The notes beneath the pieces are model-generated. The model was not told where the DNA came from and ran no database searches. It saw only the letters and a program-made list of their open reading frames with translations. A stretch of 30,777 nt of DNA from a virus: IMG/VR virus record IMGVR_UViG_3300006174_000005, positions 1-30,777 of that record; one strand, given 5' to 3'. Shown piece after piece: positions 2,382-30,316 of the stretch (position 1 is the stretch's first letter; each line of letters begins with the position of its first letter). The position numbers and the translations under genes are program-made.

Positions 2382-2576
2382 TTAGTTCCTCACAAAAAGT
2401 TCAATTAAAAACGTTGTCAATGACGCCCCAATAAATCCAGCCAGCGAAACAATTCCAGTCATCTTCCAGCGCCAAGAGATGAGTGCATCAATCTTCCCAT
2501 CCATCTTTTCTAGCATGACGGCTTGCCATCTTCCCTGAGCCTCAAGTACCGCGATTCTTTCGCCGTCTGTTTTCAT
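2382..2576 (-). CDS. Small coiled-coil plus transmembrane protein (XhlA/holin-like)
   Basis: 64 residues: an amphipathic helix (residues 1-35, starting KTDGERIAVLEAQG) followed by Trp-Arg-Trp-Lys and one hydrophobic segment (about 38-60) ending in a short charged tail. This order matches XhlA-type haemolysin/holin-associated proteins and small phage membrane proteins. AAGGAA 5 bases before ATG supports the start, and it starts 9 bases after the stop of the exported 679-residue protein. It could be a holin or holin partner for release, separate from the plus-strand lysis cassette, or an anchor for the neighbouring exported protein. The family assignment rests on topology only. Confidence 0.7.
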   Translation of the reverse strand: MKTDGERIAVLEAQGRWQAVMLEKMDGKIDALISWRWKMTGIVSLAGFIGASLTTFLIELFVRN

Positions 2577-2585
2577 AAGGTTCCT

Positions 2586-4625
2586 TTAGTGCTGGCCTAC
2601 ACAATTGATATTAAACTCGTCGTTCCCAAGTGTTCCTGTGGTGTTTGTCCAAAGCTTTACGTTTACGCTTGATGTACTTTCATTTGTTATGACGGCAATT
2701 GGACTTGATGACGCTGCTTTTGCGGTCGCAGTACACATTGGGGTAGCGCTAAATGTTCCTGTTACAAAATTAACTAAATAACTTCCCGTAGCTGACCATG
2801 TAATGCTTGAAATTCCAGCCGTACTCGCAACGCTACCACAGGTACCGCTTGTGCAAATTGCGGACATATTTGCAGACTCAAGTCTATACCCTAAAGTTGT
2901 CGAACTAGACGTTACAGAGCCCGTGAGATAAGGCGCTGGCATTGGGGCGTCGAGTTCGACGACTTTCCAGTTAGTAGTAACTCGCGTCCCATCTCCAAGT
3001 GTTAAAGTATTTGAATTTGCAAATCCCCTAATCCCAAAAGAAGTAGATGAAGTATTAGGTAATGTGTCAATTCCACAAAGCTGAAAGGTCGAGAGATTTC
3101 CGCCAGTCCCTTGATGGAAAAATGTTTGGTCAAGAATTACAGAATTTGTTTCATCATAAAGCTGAAGCCCATTGACGGTACTTGCTGTAGAATTACTTAC
3201 TGCTCCACCTACGCATACTAAATAATTTCCAGTTCTAACAGGTGTAGCAATAATGCCAGGTTTAGCACTTGTTCCAGTCCCACCATAGTTTGTTACAGTC
3301 CCAAAATTTCGATTGGTGGTTTGAGTTAAAGCGCATGAACTACTTGCTGCCGTTCCAAAATCTGCAAAAGATGCTGAAGTAGTTGTCCAAGAACAATTTA
3401 GGTTTTCGTTTCCACTCCAACTCGCAGGGGTAACGTCTGTTCTGTAAAGTTGGGAAAGGATGGCTGGCGGGTAATAAAATACAGATATTTTAAAATCTGC
3501 TAAACCAGCCGTCTGATCATTTTCAATTCTATTCGTTCCACCACCAGAAGAGTATCCTTGAATTCGATAAGTTAAATTGGTCTGTGCTCCAGTATAATCA
3601 AAATTACCTATTACAGTTCCAACAGCAGCATTTGAAGCTGCGTTATTACTTCCAGAATTTCCACCGCCAGAACTGGTTCCATCATAAACTTGATAAGCTT
3701 CGTAGTCCGCTGTAGCGCTTGATTTATTAAAAGTACCCGTTGCTATTACAGTTACATGCCCAGCAGGAATCGCAGGAATAAGCACACCTGGAATTTTTGT
3801 TCCTGGAGCTTGTGCTGCCCCTTGTAGATTAGATCCAGAAGGAAGAGTGCAGGATGATTGAACAGCGTAATCAGCATAAGAAGATGCAGTCGCAGTCCAG
3901 TTACAGCTTGCAACTCCAGGCCAATTTGCAGACCCTAAAAACTGTGCAGAGTTACCACCTAACCCAAGATTAGTCGCACGCCCACAATACATGTAACCAA
4001 GATCAATCGTCGCAGCGGTCGAAGCAGTCGAGTCCGCGACTTGAATCGCAAAGCTTGTGTCACCTGAATTCACCGTAAAGTTCAGCGAAGTAGTCTGATA
4101 CGTGTTACTCGAAGGAAGGACTTGAGTAGCGACTGTCGTAGCACCGTTTTTGATAATGTTGAAATTCCAGTTAGCACTCGAAGTCTTTGCGATAATCGAG
4201 CACATGAGGTTCATGCCGATGTATCCGCCAATGTTCGTTGGCGTGAGTGTTTGAGTAATGCTCATCGTGCCCGTGGTCGAAGCACCGTAACTCATAAGTC
4301 CGGCTTGTGTTCCACCTTCTAGCAAGTTCGCCGCAGTCGCGTCTGCAGTGAACGTCCCTGGAGTTCCACCCCCAAGCGCCAAGGTCCAACTCGTCGTTGC
4401 ATTGCTTGAAATGCTTGCTTGGAAAGTTGGGTTGGCAAGTAGGTTTGTGTTACCTGTCTCAAAGAGCGCCTTAATACCACCGAGAGAGGTTACGGAGTAG
4501 TTTGGAGTTACGAAGTTAAACGCGACCGCCGCAGTTTGATTTTGCCCATTAACGCTCGTTGGCGGCAATCCCGCGTTAGCGCATGTAGTCCAGAGAAGTA
4601 ACGTCGCAACCAGTTTTTTAATCAT
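2586..4625 (-). CDS. Exported Cys-paired, domain-duplicated protein in the fibre locus
   Basis: 679 residues from the ATG at 4625, which overlaps the upstream stop as ATGA; an in-frame ATG at 4637 would add four residues. With this start the protein opens with a clear Sec signal peptide: MIKK, a hydrophobic core LVATLLLW, and the cleavage motif ANA|G near residues 16-19. About residues 62-214 begin NLLANPTF and look like a carbohydrate-binding jelly roll. Two diverged copies of a roughly 150-residue domain follow (about 234-388 and 402-564), each opening with C-x-W-T and a second Cys about 17-18 residues later. A C-terminal Cys-containing domain follows. Paired Cys and a signal peptide indicate folding outside the cytoplasm, which is unusual for an ordinary tail fibre. 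Possible roles are a surface adhesin, a receptor-masking protein, or a fibre borrowed from a host surface protein. Confidence 0.8.
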   Translation of the reverse strand: MIKKLVATLLLWTTCANAGLPPTSVNGQNQTAAVAFNFVTPNYSVTSLGGIKALFETGNTNLLANPTFQASISSNATTSWTLALGGGTPGTFTADATAANLLEGGTQAGLMSYGASTTGTMSITQTLTPTNIGGYIGMNLMCSIIAKTSSANWNFNIIKNGATTVATQVLPSSNTYQTTSLNFTVNSGDTSFAIQVADSTASTAATIDLGYMYCGRATNLGLGGNSAQFLGSANWPGVASCNWTATASSYADYAVQSSCTLPSGSNLQGAAQAPGTKIPGVLIPAIPAGHVTVIATGTFNKSSATADYEAYQVYDGTSSGGGNSGSNNAASNAAVGTVIGNFDYTGAQTNLTYRIQGYSSGGGTNRIENDQTAGLADFKISVFYYPPAILSQLYRTDVTPASWSGNENLNCSWTTTSASFADFGTAASSSCALTQTTNRNFGTVTNYGGTGTSAKPGIIATPVRTGNYLVCVGGAVSNSTASTVNGLQLYDETNSVILDQTFFHQGTGGNLSTFQLCGIDTLPNTSSTSFGIRGFANSNTLTLGDGTRVTTNWKVVELDAPMPAPYLTGSVTSSSTTLGYRLESANMSAICTSGTCGSVASTAGISSITWSATGSYLVNFVTGTFSATPMCTATAKAASSSPIAVITNESTSSVNVKLWTNTTGTLGNDEFNINCVGQH

Positions 4626-7600
4626 TGTTGTATCCATTGAAGGTTATAAGTTGGTGTCCCTGACTCTGAACAAATCGACAGAGCCGCACCAGAAGGAACA
4701 TACCCAGTATCTTGACCGGGAAGCAATTGGAATCCTGTAGCAGTACCAGCGGTATTACCAAATCCAGTCACCCAACGAATATTGACAGTGTTTGTCGATT
4801 GATTCTGAAGAATAAAACCCTTAGCACCGTATGGAACCGTAATGTTTGCCGCAGTCGTGCTTGCGGTAGTTGTGCTATTCGTGCCGTTATTATTGATATC
4901 AGCCGTTGCAGACAATTGTATTCGATTAATTGCGCGAGTAAAGGAAGGAGTTGTTCCCCCAAGAGTTTGCACATAGCGTACTTGAACACCCTTAAACAAC
5001 AAAGGTGGAGATTGTACAATCCCAGTTGTTGTCTGAGTAGGAAAGTTATAGACCGTCTGCCAGTTTGTCGGCGTACTATCTTGCGCTTCTTGAACAGCAA
5101 CTTGGTAGGTTGGAGTAGTACCCGAAACAACTGTAATTGGTATACTTACTACATAAGCCACACCAAATGTAGGAATGAACGCTGCAGTTGTGGTGGTTGT
5201 TGTAATTGCTGCTGAAGCAACATCCTGCACAAAACCAGGAATTGCAAGCTGATCTGATACAACTTTAGTAACTGAGCTAACAGTGGAGCAGGTCGTAACT
5301 GTAGAGCACGTGGTTAAAGTTCCAGAGTTAACAATGACCCCCAAGTCATTACCAAATGAAGTTAAGTTTGTTTCATTTCCAAGAACACCATCGATGCCTT
5401 GAATTGTAAGAACTGTACCCGTTGTAGTGCATTGTAACCGAACATATTTGTAACCCATTGGGCTAAACTTGTAAGTAGCCGCAGCCGTTAACGTACCAGC
5501 CGCAGATCCCTGAGTTGTTACGTTTTGTACTGGAATTGCTGCCCACGTAGTTTGTGATAAATCATTAGAACCTTGAGCGGTTAAAACCGTGGTTGTAATT
5601 GCAGAAATCTGTACGTTAAAGACTTGGAATCCAGAAGCATCAATCGGACCCATAACGGTCTGACCAGAGGTGATTGTATATGTCCAAGGCATTGCTACCT
5701 TGGCATTAGGCTGACCCCAAGTAGCTACGCTTATGGCAGCAGTACCAGAAGTATAAGCCGTCATTTGTGCGCGGAAATAGTTTGTAGCTGTTCCGCTTGG
5801 TGGAATACTAACAAGCCAAAGCCCATTGGCCGTAGTTGTTGATGCTGCTTGAGCTGTAGCAGCGCCGTTTAATGGAAATGCATTTACAGCGGTATAAGTA
5901 GATCCATCGCTTGAGGTAGTAAATGAAATGGTTCCAGACCATGTCGTTGTTGCCGCCGCGCTATTGGTAATAGATACCAAATAGGTTGCGCCACCTTCAA
6001 CCTGATATTGCGACAAGGCATTGAGCGCCGCCATCGTATTAGCTGATGGATTATTTAAAATCTGTGGAGCATTTGCATTTACGGTCGGCTCACCTAAAGG
6101 GTTATTGAGTGCGATATCATAAACCTGAAGCCTGCCTTTTGCATCAAGCTGTAAGGCAGCTTGCTGTGTATTTGTTAAACTTGGTGCCGTAGAGTTGTAA
6201 ACACCACCAGTAAGTTGTGAATTAGTCGCAGCAGTACCAGGGGCAACCGTACCAATAACAGAGATTTGATTTGCGCTTGTCGCCGCACCAGTTGGTAGGC
6301 TAACCGTACCGGAAACGTTTGTGATGTTCCAAATCCCGCTTTGAGTTGCCAAAACATTTGAATCGCTTGAAACCGTAACCCTTGGAATACCCGAACCGCT
6401 TGCCCCAGTTCCGGTTACAACCGCATTACCACCAAACTGTGCTATGTTTTCATTCCAAGGAGTTGCATTAGCAGTCCCTTGATTTGACGTAACAGTTGTG
6501 GGAGGCGTAAGGGTTGTAATCTGTGCAGCGGGAAGAACCACGGGTAATGAGGCTGCCGACAATTGCTGACCGATTGCTATTGCAGAGCCACCAACTTGAT
6601 TCAAATTTACGTTTTGCTCACCTGAAGGCGTTATTGTAACAGTCCCCGATATTGGGAGCGCCTGACCACCAGATACACCCTGAACGCTTACAACACCGCC
6701 AGATGGAGTTCCAGCTACACCATACCCTGCAACATTACCGATGTTATTTCCACCTTGAGGAAGTGAAGCCCCAAGAGACACGATAGCCGTAGAATCATCT
6801 CCAACTAGGGTAATAACGGCTGTGCCGCTTGTAATGGTGTTCCCAGTAATACGAACAGACGTTAAACCAGCAGCATTAATCTGTGCCTGATTTGGAGCGC
6901 TAAACGTGCTCGATATTAAACCAGCAGCAGTTACTGCGTAACCATTTTGAAAGGTAATTCCATCAACGCTTGTTTGAACTTGAAGTGATCCAGTAAATGC
7001 ACCAGTAATCAACATCCCAACCTGTCCCAAGCTTGGAGCTGTTATTGTTACAGATTGATTGCTTGTAATGTTTCCAGTAGCTACAGTGTTTGGACCCGCG
7101 ATGACAGGCAGAGAGCTGCTGGTAAGGGCGGTTCCGTTGATGTCTGCAATGCTGATCGGGTGATTGCCTAGAGAATTTACAGACGGCATTGACCCATAGC
7201 CTACGTCTAGTACGAACGTAGTAGTAGTGGATGCACCGGTATTCTTTGCCGTAAGATTAACGTAGTTTCCGTTAATAATAAGTGACTGTGCAAACTGCTG
7301 ATTTGCAGCAATAGTCCAGACAATCGGAGGCAATTTATGAGTTCCTGCAAGGTCCGTATATTGATTGAATGTAAGCGTGATTGGTTGATCTGAAGTCATG
7401 TCAATCGAGATCGATTGCTGATTTGTTCCTGCTTCAATCGTTCCGGTAAATGTCGCATTTGATGCAAGCTGAGTTGACGATGAATTTCCTACGCTTGGAA
7501 CAAACATTGTAGCAGCAATTGCAACTTCCGACGCATATCCACCATTACCGTCCGCTGCACCTGTAATCGGCTCAAGAAGACCTCCAACTACAACCCCAAC

Positions 7601-7705
7601 TTGAGTTGAGTTTGCAGGAGCAGCAGATCCATTCACACCAACGCTTGAAAGACCACCACCAGAACCAGCGAGCGCACCGTTATATATTGCGTAAAAATTA
7701 GCCAT
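4622..7705 (-). CDS. Long beta-rich tail fibre or virion surface protein
   Basis: 1027 residues, very rich in Thr, Ser, Ala, Gly, Val and Asn, with long alternating-hydrophobic beta stretches and few charged residues, typical of phage fibres and adhesive surface proteins. The N-terminal 50 residues (ending in VGVVVGG and PITGA) may be the virion attachment part. Segments such as NTQQAALQLDAKGRLQVYD, about halfway along, resemble short modules seen in fibre-like proteins of uncultured phages. There is no signal peptide. AGGTGG lies 6 bases before ATG. It follows a 131-residue beta protein with no gap and overlaps the exported protein by 4 bases, so the three are co-translated. Host receptor binding is inferred from composition and location; no enzymatic motif seen. 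Confidence 0.75.
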   Translation of the reverse strand: MANFYAIYNGALAGSGGGLSSVGVNGSAAPANSTQVGVVVGGLLEPITGAADGNGGYASEVAIAATMFVPSVGNSSSTQLASNATFTGTIEAGTNQQSISIDMTSDQPITLTFNQYTDLAGTHKLPPIVWTIAANQQFAQSLIINGNYVNLTAKNTGASTTTTFVLDVGYGSMPSVNSLGNHPISIADINGTALTSSSLPVIAGPNTVATGNITSNQSVTITAPSLGQVGMLITGAFTGSLQVQTSVDGITFQNGYAVTAAGLISSTFSAPNQAQINAAGLTSVRITGNTITSGTAVITLVGDDSTAIVSLGASLPQGGNNIGNVAGYGVAGTPSGGVVSVQGVSGGQALPISGTVTITPSGEQNVNLNQVGGSAIAIGQQLSAASLPVVLPAAQITTLTPPTTVTSNQGTANATPWNENIAQFGGNAVVTGTGASGSGIPRVTVSSDSNVLATQSGIWNITNVSGTVSLPTGAATSANQISVIGTVAPGTAATNSQLTGGVYNSTAPSLTNTQQAALQLDAKGRLQVYDIALNNPLGEPTVNANAPQILNNPSANTMAALNALSQYQVEGGATYLVSITNSAAATTTWSGTISFTTSSDGSTYTAVNAFPLNGAATAQAASTTTANGLWLVSIPPSGTATNYFRAQMTAYTSGTAAISVATWGQPNAKVAMPWTYTITSGQTVMGPIDASGFQVFNVQISAITTTVLTAQGSNDLSQTTWAAIPVQNVTTQGSAAGTLTAAATYKFSPMGYKYVRLQCTTTGTVLTIQGIDGVLGNETNLTSFGNDLGVIVNSGTLTTCSTVTTCSTVSSVTKVVSDQLAIPGFVQDVASAAITTTTTTAAFIPTFGVAYVVSIPITVVSGTTPTYQVAVQEAQDSTPTNWQTVYNFPTQTTTGIVQSPPLLFKGVQVRYVQTLGGTTPSFTRAINRIQLSATADINNNGTNSTTTASTTAANITVPYGAKGFILQNQSTNTVNIRWVTGFGNTAGTATGFQLLPGQDTGYVPSGAALSICSESGTPTYNLQWIQQ

Positions 7706-21292: not shown

Positions 21293-21366
21293 TGGCTGGG
21301 CATTGAGGATTTGAACCTCAACTAACAGAGTCAAAGTCTGTGGTGCTACCGTTACACTAACGCCCA
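21293..21366 (-). tRNA. tRNA-Gln (anticodon UUG), CCA encoded
   Basis: 74 bases folding as a complete cloverleaf: acceptor TGGGCGT / ATGCCCA (7 pairs with one G-T), D stem GTGT/GCAC, anticodon stem ACAGA/TCTGT, loop CTTTGAC with TTG in the anticodon position, T arm TGAGG-TTCAAAT-CCTCA, discriminator G and genomic CCA. The U1-A72 pair and G73 are hallmarks of bacterial tRNA-Gln. It lies on the coding strand, 6 bases after the scaffold stop and 125 bases before the coat start, so it would be excised from the structural transcript. Confidence 0.95.
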
Positions 21367-26190: not shown

Positions 26191-26293
26191 GTTTAACTTT
26201 GCATCCTTTCACACAATGCCAGACTCGTTTTATCTTGTGAGTTGTTCTATCCATGACATCCTCTAGTGTGCAATGCGGTGTATGCTTAGCCAT
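26177..26293 (-). CDS. 38-residue Cys-rich micro-ORF (possible zinc knuckle)
   Basis: ATG at 26293 overlaps the methyltransferase stop, and its TAA lies 14 bases inside the small-terminase gene, so it tiles exactly the otherwise empty gap. Residues: MAKHTPHC, an acidic/basic middle, then WHCVKGCK and a basic tail. His7-Cys8 and Cys27-x3-Cys31 could form a small metal site. It might stabilise or regulate the terminase or methyltransferase, or be a translational bridge to the GTG of the small terminase. No clear ribosome binding site; too short to judge by composition. Confidence 0.5.
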   Translation of the reverse strand: MAKHTPHCTLEDVMDRTTHKIKRVWHCVKGCKVKRGKT

Positions 26294-27476
26294 CGAGGAG
26301 TTCTGCTTTCTTGCCGGTGTACTTTTCCCAGCGGGCCACGATGACGTCGCAGTACTTTGGGTCTAGTTCCATCATGAAACACTTTCGATTCGTTTTCTCG
26401 CACGCGATAAGTGTTGAGCCTGAGCCGCCGAAGAGATCGATTACGTTTCCGGTCTTGCTTGACCATCCTTCAATTTGAAGTTCGATAATTTGAATTGGTT
26501 TTTGAGTCGGATGACCAAACTCTTTTTCAGTTTTTTCGGTAATCCAATATTTCCTGTAGTGCTCCGGTGAAAGCCCGGCATTAAAAATAGCTCTCTTGTT
26601 CAAAAAGAGACAATATTCCGTATCTGGATAATGGCTACCCGAAGTGAATGGGATGTGTGATGTCTTGTGCCAGGTTAGGATGTTAAAATTGTACTTACAT
26701 CCTATCGCCCAGTTTAAGTAATTCGGCACAAGATCCTTGTTGCAGAAAATGAATGCCGACATTCTATCCTCAAAAATCGCTGGCAAAACATTCAGAAAGT
26801 CGGTCGGGTCAAAATCGACCAATCCCTCAAGCTGCTTCTCGAGTTTGTTTGCTGCTTTAGCAAAGGCTCCTCTCCCGCTTGTTTCCATGTTGTACGGCGG
26901 GTCAGTAAAGACCATGTCGGCCTTCTCGCCGTTCATTAGCTTCTCAACCGAATCAATACTCGTCGAATCCCCACACATCAGCCGATGCCGCCCGAGTTGG
27001 TAAATATCGCCTAGTTTCGTCTTTGGCTCCACTTGTTCCGGTACTTCATCCTCATCGCATTGGGGTTCTATTTGCTCAATGTTCAAGCTGAAATCTTTAA
27101 TCCCTAGGATATCAATATTAAAATCAGGACCAAGATCATCCAAGTCGGAACTGATTGTAGATAGGTCAAGCTCTGACCAAGCGGCGATAGCATTATCAGC
27201 TTGAACGTCTGCATATTCTTGATCTCCAGAGTCATAGTTTTGATAGTTGACAGGCACCTCCGTCCAGTTCATTAGCTTTGCGGCTTCTAGGCGGCCGTGA
27301 CCAGAGGTGATGAAGCCCGATTGCTTTGAGACTTTAATGGGGTACCGCCAGCCTTGATACTCGAGTATCTCAGCTAGACGTTTGATCTGATCAGGCGGGT
27401 GCTTATTGCGATTCTTAGGATGAGCCTTAAGATCACGCGGATGAGCTAGCTTATCGTAGAGGCAGTGTATGATCAC
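26286..27476 (-). CDS. ParB-like domain fused to DNA methyltransferase
   Basis: 396 residues from a GTG that overlaps the upstream stop as GTGA. Residues 1-75 are a ParB/Srx-like domain (LKAHPKNRNKHPPDQIKRLA and SGHGRLEAAKL). Residues about 150-396 are an N6-adenine/N4-cytosine methyltransferase: catalytic TDPPYN at 191-196, HPTQKP at 322-327 and the AdoMet loop DLFGGSGST at 347-355. DPPY preceding the FxGxG motif is the beta-class order, with the recognition region between. It would methylate phage or host DNA, for protection from restriction or to mark DNA for packaging. ParB-methyltransferase fusions beside terminases are known in phages. No partner endonuclease is visible. Confidence 0.9.
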   Translation of the reverse strand: MIIHCLYDKLAHPRDLKAHPKNRNKHPPDQIKRLAEILEYQGWRYPIKVSKQSGFITSGHGRLEAAKLMNWTEVPVNYQNYDSGDQEYADVQADNAIAAWSELDLSTISSDLDDLGPDFNIDILGIKDFSLNIEQIEPQCDEDEVPEQVEPKTKLGDIYQLGRHRLMCGDSTSIDSVEKLMNGEKADMVFTDPPYNMETSGRGAFAKAANKLEKQLEGLVDFDPTDFLNVLPAIFEDRMSAFIFCNKDLVPNYLNWAIGCKYNFNILTWHKTSHIPFTSGSHYPDTEYCLFLNKRAIFNAGLSPEHYRKYWITEKTEKEFGHPTQKPIQIIELQIEGWSSKTGNVIDLFGGSGSTLIACEKTNRKCFMMELDPKYCDVIVARWEKYTGKKAELLDG

Positions 27477-28910: not shown

Positions 28911-29129
28911 ATGAGTCCACAATTGATTGCATTGTTACAGAAGATTGAAAAAGAAGACCTCGCTATTTTGGCGGAGGGTCTGGTGCCAGCTATTTTTGAA
29001 GAGATCCAGAAGTTGTCTGCAAGTCAGTCAACGATCTCGGCTATTGAAGCCGTGGTGTTTCCGGCTGTGTTGCCTGCCGCACAATCGGCTTTCGCTAGCT
29101 TGATTGCGAAGCTTCCGGTAGTGGCGTAA
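28911..29129 (+). CDS. Small helical protein at head of lysis cassette, unknown
   Basis: 72 residues, Ala/Leu/Ile-rich, with helices PQLIALLQKIEKEDLAILAEG and a long hydrophobic C-terminal helix AVVFPAVLPAAQSAFASLIA. AAGGAG 10 bases before ATG is a good start. The C-terminal segment is long enough to insert in or lie on a membrane, so a holin-associated or antiholin role is possible. First gene of a plus-strand set that ends in the endolysin. Confidence 0.65.
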   Translation: MSPQLIALLQKIEKEDLAILAEGLVPAIFEEIQKLSASQSTISAIEAVVFPAVLPAAQSAFASLIAKLPVVA

Positions 29130-29133
29130 CTCT

Positions 29134-29289
29134 ATGGGCGGCTTGGATATACATGCACTCACTGAGCAGCATCAGTTTGTTATATTGCTTTTGATCCAAG
29201 CCGCTCAAATTGTGAGTATGGTTTTACTTTACAGATCTTCACCGAAAAAAGATGACGCTACCACCAAACAAGACAATACAAACGGCTGA
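29134..29289 (+). CDS. 51-residue single-TM protein, holin candidate
   Basis: Starts two bases after the previous stop and ends 38 bases inside the next gene. Residues 15-33 (FVILLLIQAAQIVSMVLLY) form one transmembrane helix with a short N-terminal segment and a charged, disordered C-terminal tail (RSSPKKDDATTKQD). This is the layout of small class III-like holins or holin helpers. No Shine-Dalgarno is visible, and an inverted repeat with one arm overlapping the G of the ATG could fold over the start, so translation may be restrained or coupled. An alternative is that the stretch is structured RNA with an incidental frame. Confidence 0.55.
   Translation: MGGLDIHALTEQHQFVILLLIQAAQIVSMVLLYRSSPKKDDATTKQDNTNG
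29136..29206 (+). other. Long-range inverted repeat in the lysis cassette
   Basis: Arms GCGGCTTGGAT (29138-29148) and ATCCAAGCCGC (29194-29204) are perfect 11-base complements; one G-U and one G-C pair extend the stem to 13 (29136-29148 with 29194-29206). The 45-base loop has no obvious strong stem. It covers the beginning of the 51-residue ORF and would hide its start codon. No U run follows. Confidence 0.7.
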
Positions 29290-29629
29290 CGAAATCATCG
29301 CTCAAGCGAACAGTGCGGGCGTGAAGTACCTCCAGGGGTTGATCACGGCGGACGTGCCGTTCCTAGGACTCCCCGTCATAAGTACGTTTGTGGGCATGGT
29401 GCTGGGCTGGCTTGACGGCTACCTCGTGACGGTCGAAGAAGACGGCGTCAGCTTTGCAATATACGACATTAAGACAAGCGGTGAAGAGACTGCGATATCA
29501 AAGGCACGCGCGGCGTTATTAGCGGCCAACAAGTCACAGGATCCCGCGGCGATCCAGAAAGCGAGACAAGACTATGCGAGCGCTCAATCTGCGCTGGTTA
29601 ATCTGGACGGCATCACTCCTTCTGCCTAG
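29252..29629 (+). CDS. Lysis-cassette protein with hydrophobic segment
   Basis: 125 residues. An N-terminal helix (QTADEIIAQANSAGVKYLQG) is followed by one hydrophobic stretch (about 34-58, VPFLGLPVISTFVGMVLGWL) and a soluble C-terminal part with a charged/Ala helix (KARAALLAANKSQDPAAIQK). Such proteins beside endolysins in podovirus-like phages are taken as holin-like; an inner-membrane spanin is less likely because the hydrophobic segment is not at the N-terminus. GAAAAAAG precedes ATG weakly. Overlaps the 51-residue ORF and, by 56 bases, the lipoprotein gene. Confidence 0.65.
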   Translation: MTLPPNKTIQTADEIIAQANSAGVKYLQGLITADVPFLGLPVISTFVGMVLGWLDGYLVTVEEDGVSFAIYDIKTSGEETAISKARAALLAANKSQDPAAIQKARQDYASAQSALVNLDGITPSA

Positions 29630-29906
29630 CTGTTCGATCACGCTCAAAGACGCGACCTTTTGCTCACCGATGCCAGGTGGAGGCGCAGCGTGCGATAACT
29701 TGCTCACTAAGAATCAGCGGATCTTGAGTGAGCCTGAGTGGAACGCACTGCTCCAGAGCTGGATCACGGCCGGCAACGCGATTGAGGTCACCACGTCCCA
29801 GACGTTCGGAGACCTAAAGCTTGAGCTAGAGAAGCTCTGCACCGCAAGTAAGCTGCAGTGCGTTCAAGCAGAAGCATCTATTACGCAAGGAGTCGTGAAA
29901 CCATGA
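29574..29906 (+). CDS. Outer-membrane lipoprotein, Rz1-like spanin candidate
   Basis: 110 residues with a lipoprotein signal peptide: basic start, hydrophobic WLIWTASLLL and lipobox L-P-S-C with Cys 20 as the lipidation site. The mature part has several Cys (ATFCS, AACDN, EKLCTA, LQCVQ) and a helix, unlike the short Pro-rich classical Rz1. Overlap with the previous gene by 56 bases and placement just before the endolysin recall spanin gene arrangements. If a spanin, it would link to an inner-membrane partner and disrupt the outer membrane at lysis. Otherwise it could be a superinfection-blocking lipoprotein. Confidence 0.7.
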   Translation: MRALNLRWLIWTASLLLPSCSITLKDATFCSPMPGGGAACDNLLTKNQRILSEPEWNALLQSWITAGNAIEVTTSQTFGDLKLELEKLCTASKLQCVQAEASITQGVVKP

Positions 29907-30316
29907 GCAAGCACGCACGCGACGCGGTATGCCCAAGCTGTGAAGAGAAACTCAAACAAGCGTGTGGCTATATGGTCAATTGGTTCCACAACACTAAGAA
30001 GCATTTCCCAAGTATTCATATCAGTTGTTCGTTCCGTAATCAGCAAGACCAAGAGCAAGCCTATGCGGAGGGCAAGACCCATGCACAATGGCCTAAATCG
30101 CCCCATAATCGCACGAACGATGACGGGGTGCCATGTTCGTATGCCCTAGACCTCTTTGAGCTGTCTGAGGGCAACGTAGCGCTGTTTCCGCCTAAGTTGT
30201 ACTGCGATCTCTGGGACTACTGCGTCAAGAATGGTTTAGAGATTATCTGGGGGGGAAAGTTTAGGTCGCTAGGGGATGCGGATCATTTCCAGTACAATCC
30301 CCTAGCTAAGACTTAA
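29903..30316 (+). CDS. Endolysin, M15-type peptidase (VanY / L-Ala-D-Glu or D,D-carboxypeptidase)
   Basis: 137 residues from the ATG at 29903, overlapping the lipoprotein stop as ATGA; an upstream in-frame ATG at 29858 is less likely. The zinc ligands of peptidase M15 are visible as H68 (KSPHN), D83 (SYALDLF) and H128 (DADHF), with the conserved SFRNQQDQEQAYAEGKT before them. It would cut peptide cross-links of peptidoglycan at lysis. It lacks a signal peptide, so a holin must release it. N-terminal CPSCEE and a later Cys could form a small metal site or disulfide. Last gene of the cassette; its TAA shares two bases with the opposing gene's stop. Confidence 0.9.
   Translation: MSKHARDAVCPSCEEKLKQACGYMVNWFHNTKKHFPSIHISCSFRNQQDQEQAYAEGKTHAQWPKSPHNRTNDDGVPCSYALDLFELSEGNVALFPPKLYCDLWDYCVKNGLEIIWGGKFRSLGDADHFQYNPLAKT

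Follow-up and report, generated by a model that had tools for sequence, protein, structure and literature searches.

A widespread phage protein family with predicted Sec export and domains related to the tips of Bdellovibrio adhesins

Gene organization of the locus

In this study, we analysed a gene for a predicted exported protein in the tail region of an uncultivated phage. The window (the whole stretch of DNA analysed, 30,777 nucleotides) is a 30.8-kb IMG/VR virus record that encodes a terminase, a portal protein, a major head protein, and an SU10-type adaptor, and it is therefore assigned to a tailed phage. Its terminase has no near relative among isolates (23% identity). The gene is read from the minus strand (4625..2586; ATG at 4625-4623 and stop codon at 2588-2586) and encodes 679 aa, so that the first-pass annotation was right in its coordinates, 2586-4625. 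An alternative in-frame ATG at 4637 would add four aa to the protein. The start proposed there from an ATGA overlap was confirmed, as the ATG overlaps the stop codon of an upstream gene for a 1027-aa protein. The features of the locus are as follows.

4622..7705, minus strand: upstream fibre-like protein of 1027 aa with no signal peptide and four Cys (translation and gene table)
4622..4625, minus strand: ATGA overlap of the upstream stop codon TGA and the gene start ATG, likewise found in 9 of 26 family members (sequence)
4572..4625, minus strand: predicted Sec signal peptide, residues 1-18, MIKKLVATLLLWTTCANA (sequence and crude signal rule)
3975..4448, minus strand: CBM4/CBM22-like jelly roll, residues ~60-217, with putative Cys pair 142-214 (fold and profile)
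3471..3947, minus strand: TNF/C1q-like domain A, residues ~227-385, with putative Cys pair 241-259 (sequence and fold)
2952..3431, minus strand: TNF/C1q-like domain B, a diverged copy of domain A, residues ~399-558, with putative Cys pairs 411-431 and 471-517
2589..2909, minus strand: C-terminal beta domain, residues 573-679, with putative Cys pairs 591-596 and 631-675 (alignment A7 and Cys covariation)
2382..2576, minus strand: 64-aa product of the downstream gene, holin-like by reading only, with a single membrane-spanning stretch (no Pfam match)

Signal peptide cleavage is predicted between MIKKLVATLLLWTTCANA and GLPP, leaving a mature protein of 661 aa. The site, ANA followed by G, is of the signal-peptidase-I type, and those of the relatives are alike. 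A classical lipobox at C15 is absent, and the relative L029 has no Cys at that position. No C-terminal anchor or sorting signal was identified in the window protein. The large genes neighbouring it in the tail module encode few or no Cys. The gene had been described as lying between tail-fibre genes, which is certain for its upstream side and uncertain for its downstream side.

Domain architecture

The structure of the protein was predicted by AlphaFold without templates (mean pLDDT of 67.7 for the full protein and 77.9 for the C-terminal half), and the models were compared by Foldseek/VIA. The N-terminal domain resembles CBM4-2 in the fold comparison of the predicted model (Z about 15.7) and the CBM of xylanase Xyn10C by sequence profile (E 2.7e-5), bearing out the carbohydrate-binding-like domain that had been suggested from the sequence. 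It shares its fold with CBM4/CBM22 modules and differs in having no attached enzyme. Domain A matches 8okw with a phmmer E value of 1.9e-8, a TM score of 0.89, a Z score of 20.5, and an rmsd of 1.9 Å over 150 residues; the sequence of the window protein matches no other PDB chain at E values up to 10. Domain B matches the same chain (profile E 1.1e-5, Z 16.8). A profile-profile comparison of the two domains by hhalign (probability 99.3%, E 5.5e-20) indicates a true duplication, in agreement with the two diverged Cys-containing copies noted previously. The C-terminal domain, which ends in ICMGPK/R in the family, has no convincing PDB relative by sequence, the best match being Phi92 gp135 (E 0.39). 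No beta-helix stretch is apparent in the monomer model. We infer that the protein may form trimers and that its lectin-like domains may bind glycans.

A phage-borne family

The first four relatives, all on viral contigs, were found with a degenerate DNA pattern designed on the motif AQFxGSA...CxW, and further relatives were collected with profiles built from these four and with a domain-A profile blind to the N-terminus. In total, relatives of the window protein are present on 44 further IMG/VR viral contigs; gene calls were home-made, and many of the relatives, coming from contigs, are fragments. The members in family alignment A5 are 17-32% identical to the window protein. The first set comprises 26 members including the window protein, and the members from the N-terminus-blind profile form a held-out set. 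The nearest relative in layout is L029, whose N-terminus, MIKKLASILLLWSFAANAGLPPT, is much like that of the window protein. Two contigs carry members cut off at both of their ends. On 3300031999_000069, the overlapping stretch of these members (L033 and L038) differs, and therefore they are two diverged copies on one contig; those on 3300042476_000424 (L088 and L091) could be two pieces of one gene interrupted by the contig ends.

The window protein has no fitting model in Pfam, NCBIfam, or PHROGs, and the few weak matches of other members are not family-wide. A tblastn search of 50,697 phage records with the window protein gave no match, and peptide-pattern scans with it found no true relative, the one candidate (L002) being a chance match. 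Two pattern scans of 84,980 genomes found no family member, with patterns that would miss diverged bacterial copies such as Bd2734 of Bdellovibrio bacteriovorus; the 17 loci of the second scan have at most weak scores against the family profile and were regarded as chance matches. With the tip domain of Bd2734 as the query, nothing was found in phages or plasmids, and one further viral contig (L059, counted among the 44) was recovered. Since the relatives are on viral contigs and none appeared in the two genome pattern scans, the family looks phage-borne. The earlier suggestion of descent from a host adhesin gains no support from these genome scans, which miss diverged copies. No report of such a phage family was found in the open-access literature. 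The window protein belongs to an undescribed family.

In most contigs, the family gene comes immediately after a gene for a cytosolic fibre-like protein, one of a cluster of 18 (c1), and precedes small genes, and this position suggests late expression. The upstream structural genes vary by contig and are either podovirus-like with SU10-type parts or siphovirus-like with a putative tape measure. In L059, the family gene is followed by three small ORFs, a Peptidase_M15 protein, and a terminase-like gene. The c1 proteins have a conserved fibre C-terminal domain (e.g., L024:9359-9898 and L025:9207-9917) that ends like DLIxVRLYRDTDTATGDVxFxxxxEVxFS and accompanies the exported family in most contigs. 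The idea that the exported protein is a copy of the neighbouring c1 fibre tip is unsupported, as profile comparison finds no homologous domain.

Evidence for export

By a simple and crude home-made rule, backed by reading of the N-termini, signal peptides were found in 25 of the 26 first-set members (window protein included). Among the 207 other proteins from these contigs that are 200 aa or longer, only 13 pass the rule (Fisher p 2e-24). The mature part has an even number of Cys in 25 of the 26 members (range 4 to 18, with a few members truncated by a contig end) vs 32 of 63 controls with at least four Cys (p 1.6e-5). Both p-values treat as independent members that are in fact related. The remaining member in the signal comparison lacks its 5' end, and the clean Sec signal peptide of the first-pass annotation is thereby borne out. 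In the held-out set, nearly all five-prime-complete records pass the signal rule, the one exception (L065) being signal-like by eye, and the Cys count is even in 14 of 14 unique full-length members. Cys accounts for 2.2% of the family residues vs 0.6% in other proteins.

The Cys columns of the alignment also co-vary. Among the relatives, columns 631/675 carry both Cys in 19 cases and neither in one, columns 471/517 both in 18 and neither in two, columns 144/212 both in 12 and neither in eight, columns 411/431 both in 10, neither in nine, and a single Cys in one, and columns 609/618 both in five and neither in 15. The 12 mature Cys of the window protein fit the six pairs given in the feature list, all of which fall in co-occurring or near-invariant columns; Cys142 and Cys214 are each shifted by two columns relative to the 144/212 pair seen in the relatives. 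The disulphide pairing proposed here follows these alignment columns. Pairing of this kind would be expected if the protein folds in an oxidising compartment. Export of the family is well supported by signal peptides, even Cys counts, and covarying Cys columns, all of them sequence-level evidence that goes beyond signal prediction. The window protein is very probably an exported lectin-like adhesin.

These observations bear on the simplest alternative, an ordinary tail fibre folded in the cytoplasm, whose hydrophobic N-terminus merely resembles a signal peptide. Its position in the tail operon and its fibre-like modularity would fit such a protein. However, the n-h-c signal architecture is conserved in every complete first-set member, and even Cys counts and paired Cys columns stand against tail-module neighbours with few or no Cys. 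Given the export signal and the Cys pairing, we consider an ordinary tail fibre very unlikely.

Several of the 13 rule-positive controls are fibre-like proteins with real-looking signals. Sec-like signal peptides are present on fibre-like or collar proteins of sibling phages (L034:8367-9887, L034:15467-16366, L039:8113-9048, L039:9058-9501, and L040:8267-9904), including a Phage Tail Collar (PF07484) protein. Homologs of the L034 fibre in other contigs have no signal peptide.

Relationship to Bdellovibrio adhesins and other known systems

The 8OKW structure consists of residues 691-843 of Bd2734 from B. bacteriovorus, and this tip is the best solved match of both Cys domains by sequence and fold. 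Therefore, a faint resemblance to Bdellovibrionota surface proteins, noticed before any database search, proved right at the domain level. Bd2734 belongs to the mosaic adhesive trimer (MAT) superfamily of surface adhesins and has no beta-helical domains (PMC10769870). Members of this superfamily have been shown to be displayed on the cell surface, and one of them, Bd2439, to bind prey glycans; all 21 MATs have a conserved beta-rich domain of ~130 aa directly after the signal peptide (PMC10769870). The window protein shares with Bd2734 a signal peptide, a modular adhesin architecture, and a homologous disulphide-bearing TNF/C1q-like domain, in which the Cys spacing is the same as in domain A. 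The motif APGTKIPG of domain A has the same version in Bd2734 (APTEGKIPG), L035 (APGTKIPA), and L039 (APSTNIPA), whereas the commoner version, QTTDxDLP, is not present in domain A of the window protein. The two proteins differ in that the window gene is phage-borne and lies within a tail operon, its TNF-like domains are internal and two in tandem whereas that of Bd2734 is a single C-terminal tip, and they are preceded by a CBM4-like domain and followed by a distinct C-terminal domain. The phage family appears to work like MAT adhesins and shares their tips; we do not go as far as to class it as MAT, a group defined by the N-terminal domain and display on the predator. Domain homology suggests a Bdellovibrionota host.

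The TNF-like lectins BC2L-C and PLTL and the heads of cyanophage short tail fibres (8KE9) share their fold with domain B and, by homology, with domain A. Their similarity is lower than that of Bd2734, and the cyanophage fibres are virion parts. Like the superinfection-exclusion lipoproteins T5 Llp and Cor, the window protein is a phage-encoded exported protein. However, Llp is an early-expressed lipoprotein of small size that resides in the periplasm, whereas the window protein, with 661 aa in its mature form, is multi-domain, lectin-like, and apparently non-lipidated. Since a lipobox was looked for and is absent, it is not a lipoprotein of the Llp/Cor type.

Proposed function

We propose that the gene encodes a disulphide-stabilised multi-domain adhesin whose domain type is that of Bdellovibrio MAT tips, and that it would be translated late, coupled to the tail-fibre operon. 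The Sec machinery of a diderm host would export the protein to the periplasm, where it would be oxidised, and from there it would most likely reach or line the outer surface of the infected cell. There, the CBM4-like and two TNF-like domains might bind surface glycans and block phage receptors; this would stop progeny from adsorbing again to the dying cell or to cell debris and would keep competitors out. Export, lectin folds, late expression, and the adjoining receptor-binding module together argue for such a surface lectin, and T5 Llp provides a positional precedent, being an exported phage protein whose gene neighbours that of the receptor-binding protein pb5 on the downstream side (PMC9586334). 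A late, phage-borne, Sec-exported adhesin that blocks receptors on the infected cell is the best explanation we can offer, at slightly less than an even chance. Receptor blocking as such is the leading mechanism and is put forward tentatively, and its simple form is weakened by the neighbouring c1 fibre tip, which has no homology to the domains of the protein. The lack of a lipobox and of an identified C-terminal anchor or sorting signal also weighs against retention at the surface, and T5 Llp is an imperfect precedent in view of its small size, lipidation, periplasmic location, and early expression.

The main rival is an exported accessory virion fibre. Its subunits would fold and be oxidised in the periplasm and would be added to tails outside the cytoplasm, either in the course of lysis or later. 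The position in the tail operon with ATGA coupling fits this reading, as does the domain mosaicism: in L017, L034, and L036, domains are swapped for those of tail-fibre type, which would also suit a virion protein. TNF-like heads occur on phage fibres (8ke9 and 9k09), and the signal peptides on other fibre or collar proteins of sibling contigs (L034, L039, and L040) point the same way. However, the tails of tailed dsDNA phages are completed in the cytoplasm, and we know of no fibres in these phages that are exported and then joined to virions. We regard an exported accessory fibre as unlikely.

The protein might instead be a phage-delivered adhesin that alters the behaviour of the infected cell (attachment, aggregation, or, in a predator host, prey handling) and has no part in receptor blocking. 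The domain homology to predator adhesin tips would be consistent with this role, as would the surface display of the Bdellovibrio superfamily, one member of which binds prey glycans (PMC10769870). A late, tail-coupled gene would leave little time for such a change to pay off, which makes a behaviour-altering adhesin quite improbable.

A broader and more doubtful reading is that tailed phages whose hosts are probably Bdellovibrionota use Sec late in infection to export fibre-type adhesins with disulphide bonds, which would either dress the host with MAT-like lectins or join virions outside the cytoplasm, with predator and phage sharing a pool of tips by exchange. The present data describe a phage protein family that is widespread and whose function can be tested, and they link phages to the adhesins that predatory bacteria use in prey recognition. 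The adhesin tips would be either phage-derived or taken up by phages. Very few phages of predatory bacteria have been isolated and sequenced, and we suggest the family as a marker for them.

Other features of the window

A probable lysis cassette, identified by reading only, lies at 28911-30316 on the plus strand and contains small membrane-type ORFs, a lipoprotein (29574-29906, LLPSC), and an ORF that reads like an M15 peptidase (29903-30316). The lipoprotein in this cassette suggests a diderm host. On the minus strand, positions 26286-27476 encode a fusion of a DNA methyltransferase with a ParB-like N-terminus (phrog_498 and ParB-like PHROGs), and the SU10-type adaptor (PF24175; 17766-18971) has ~160 extra N-terminal residues that read like fibronectin type III. 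A tRNA-Gln (TTG) gene is located at 21293-21366 on the minus strand, beside the major head protein gene.
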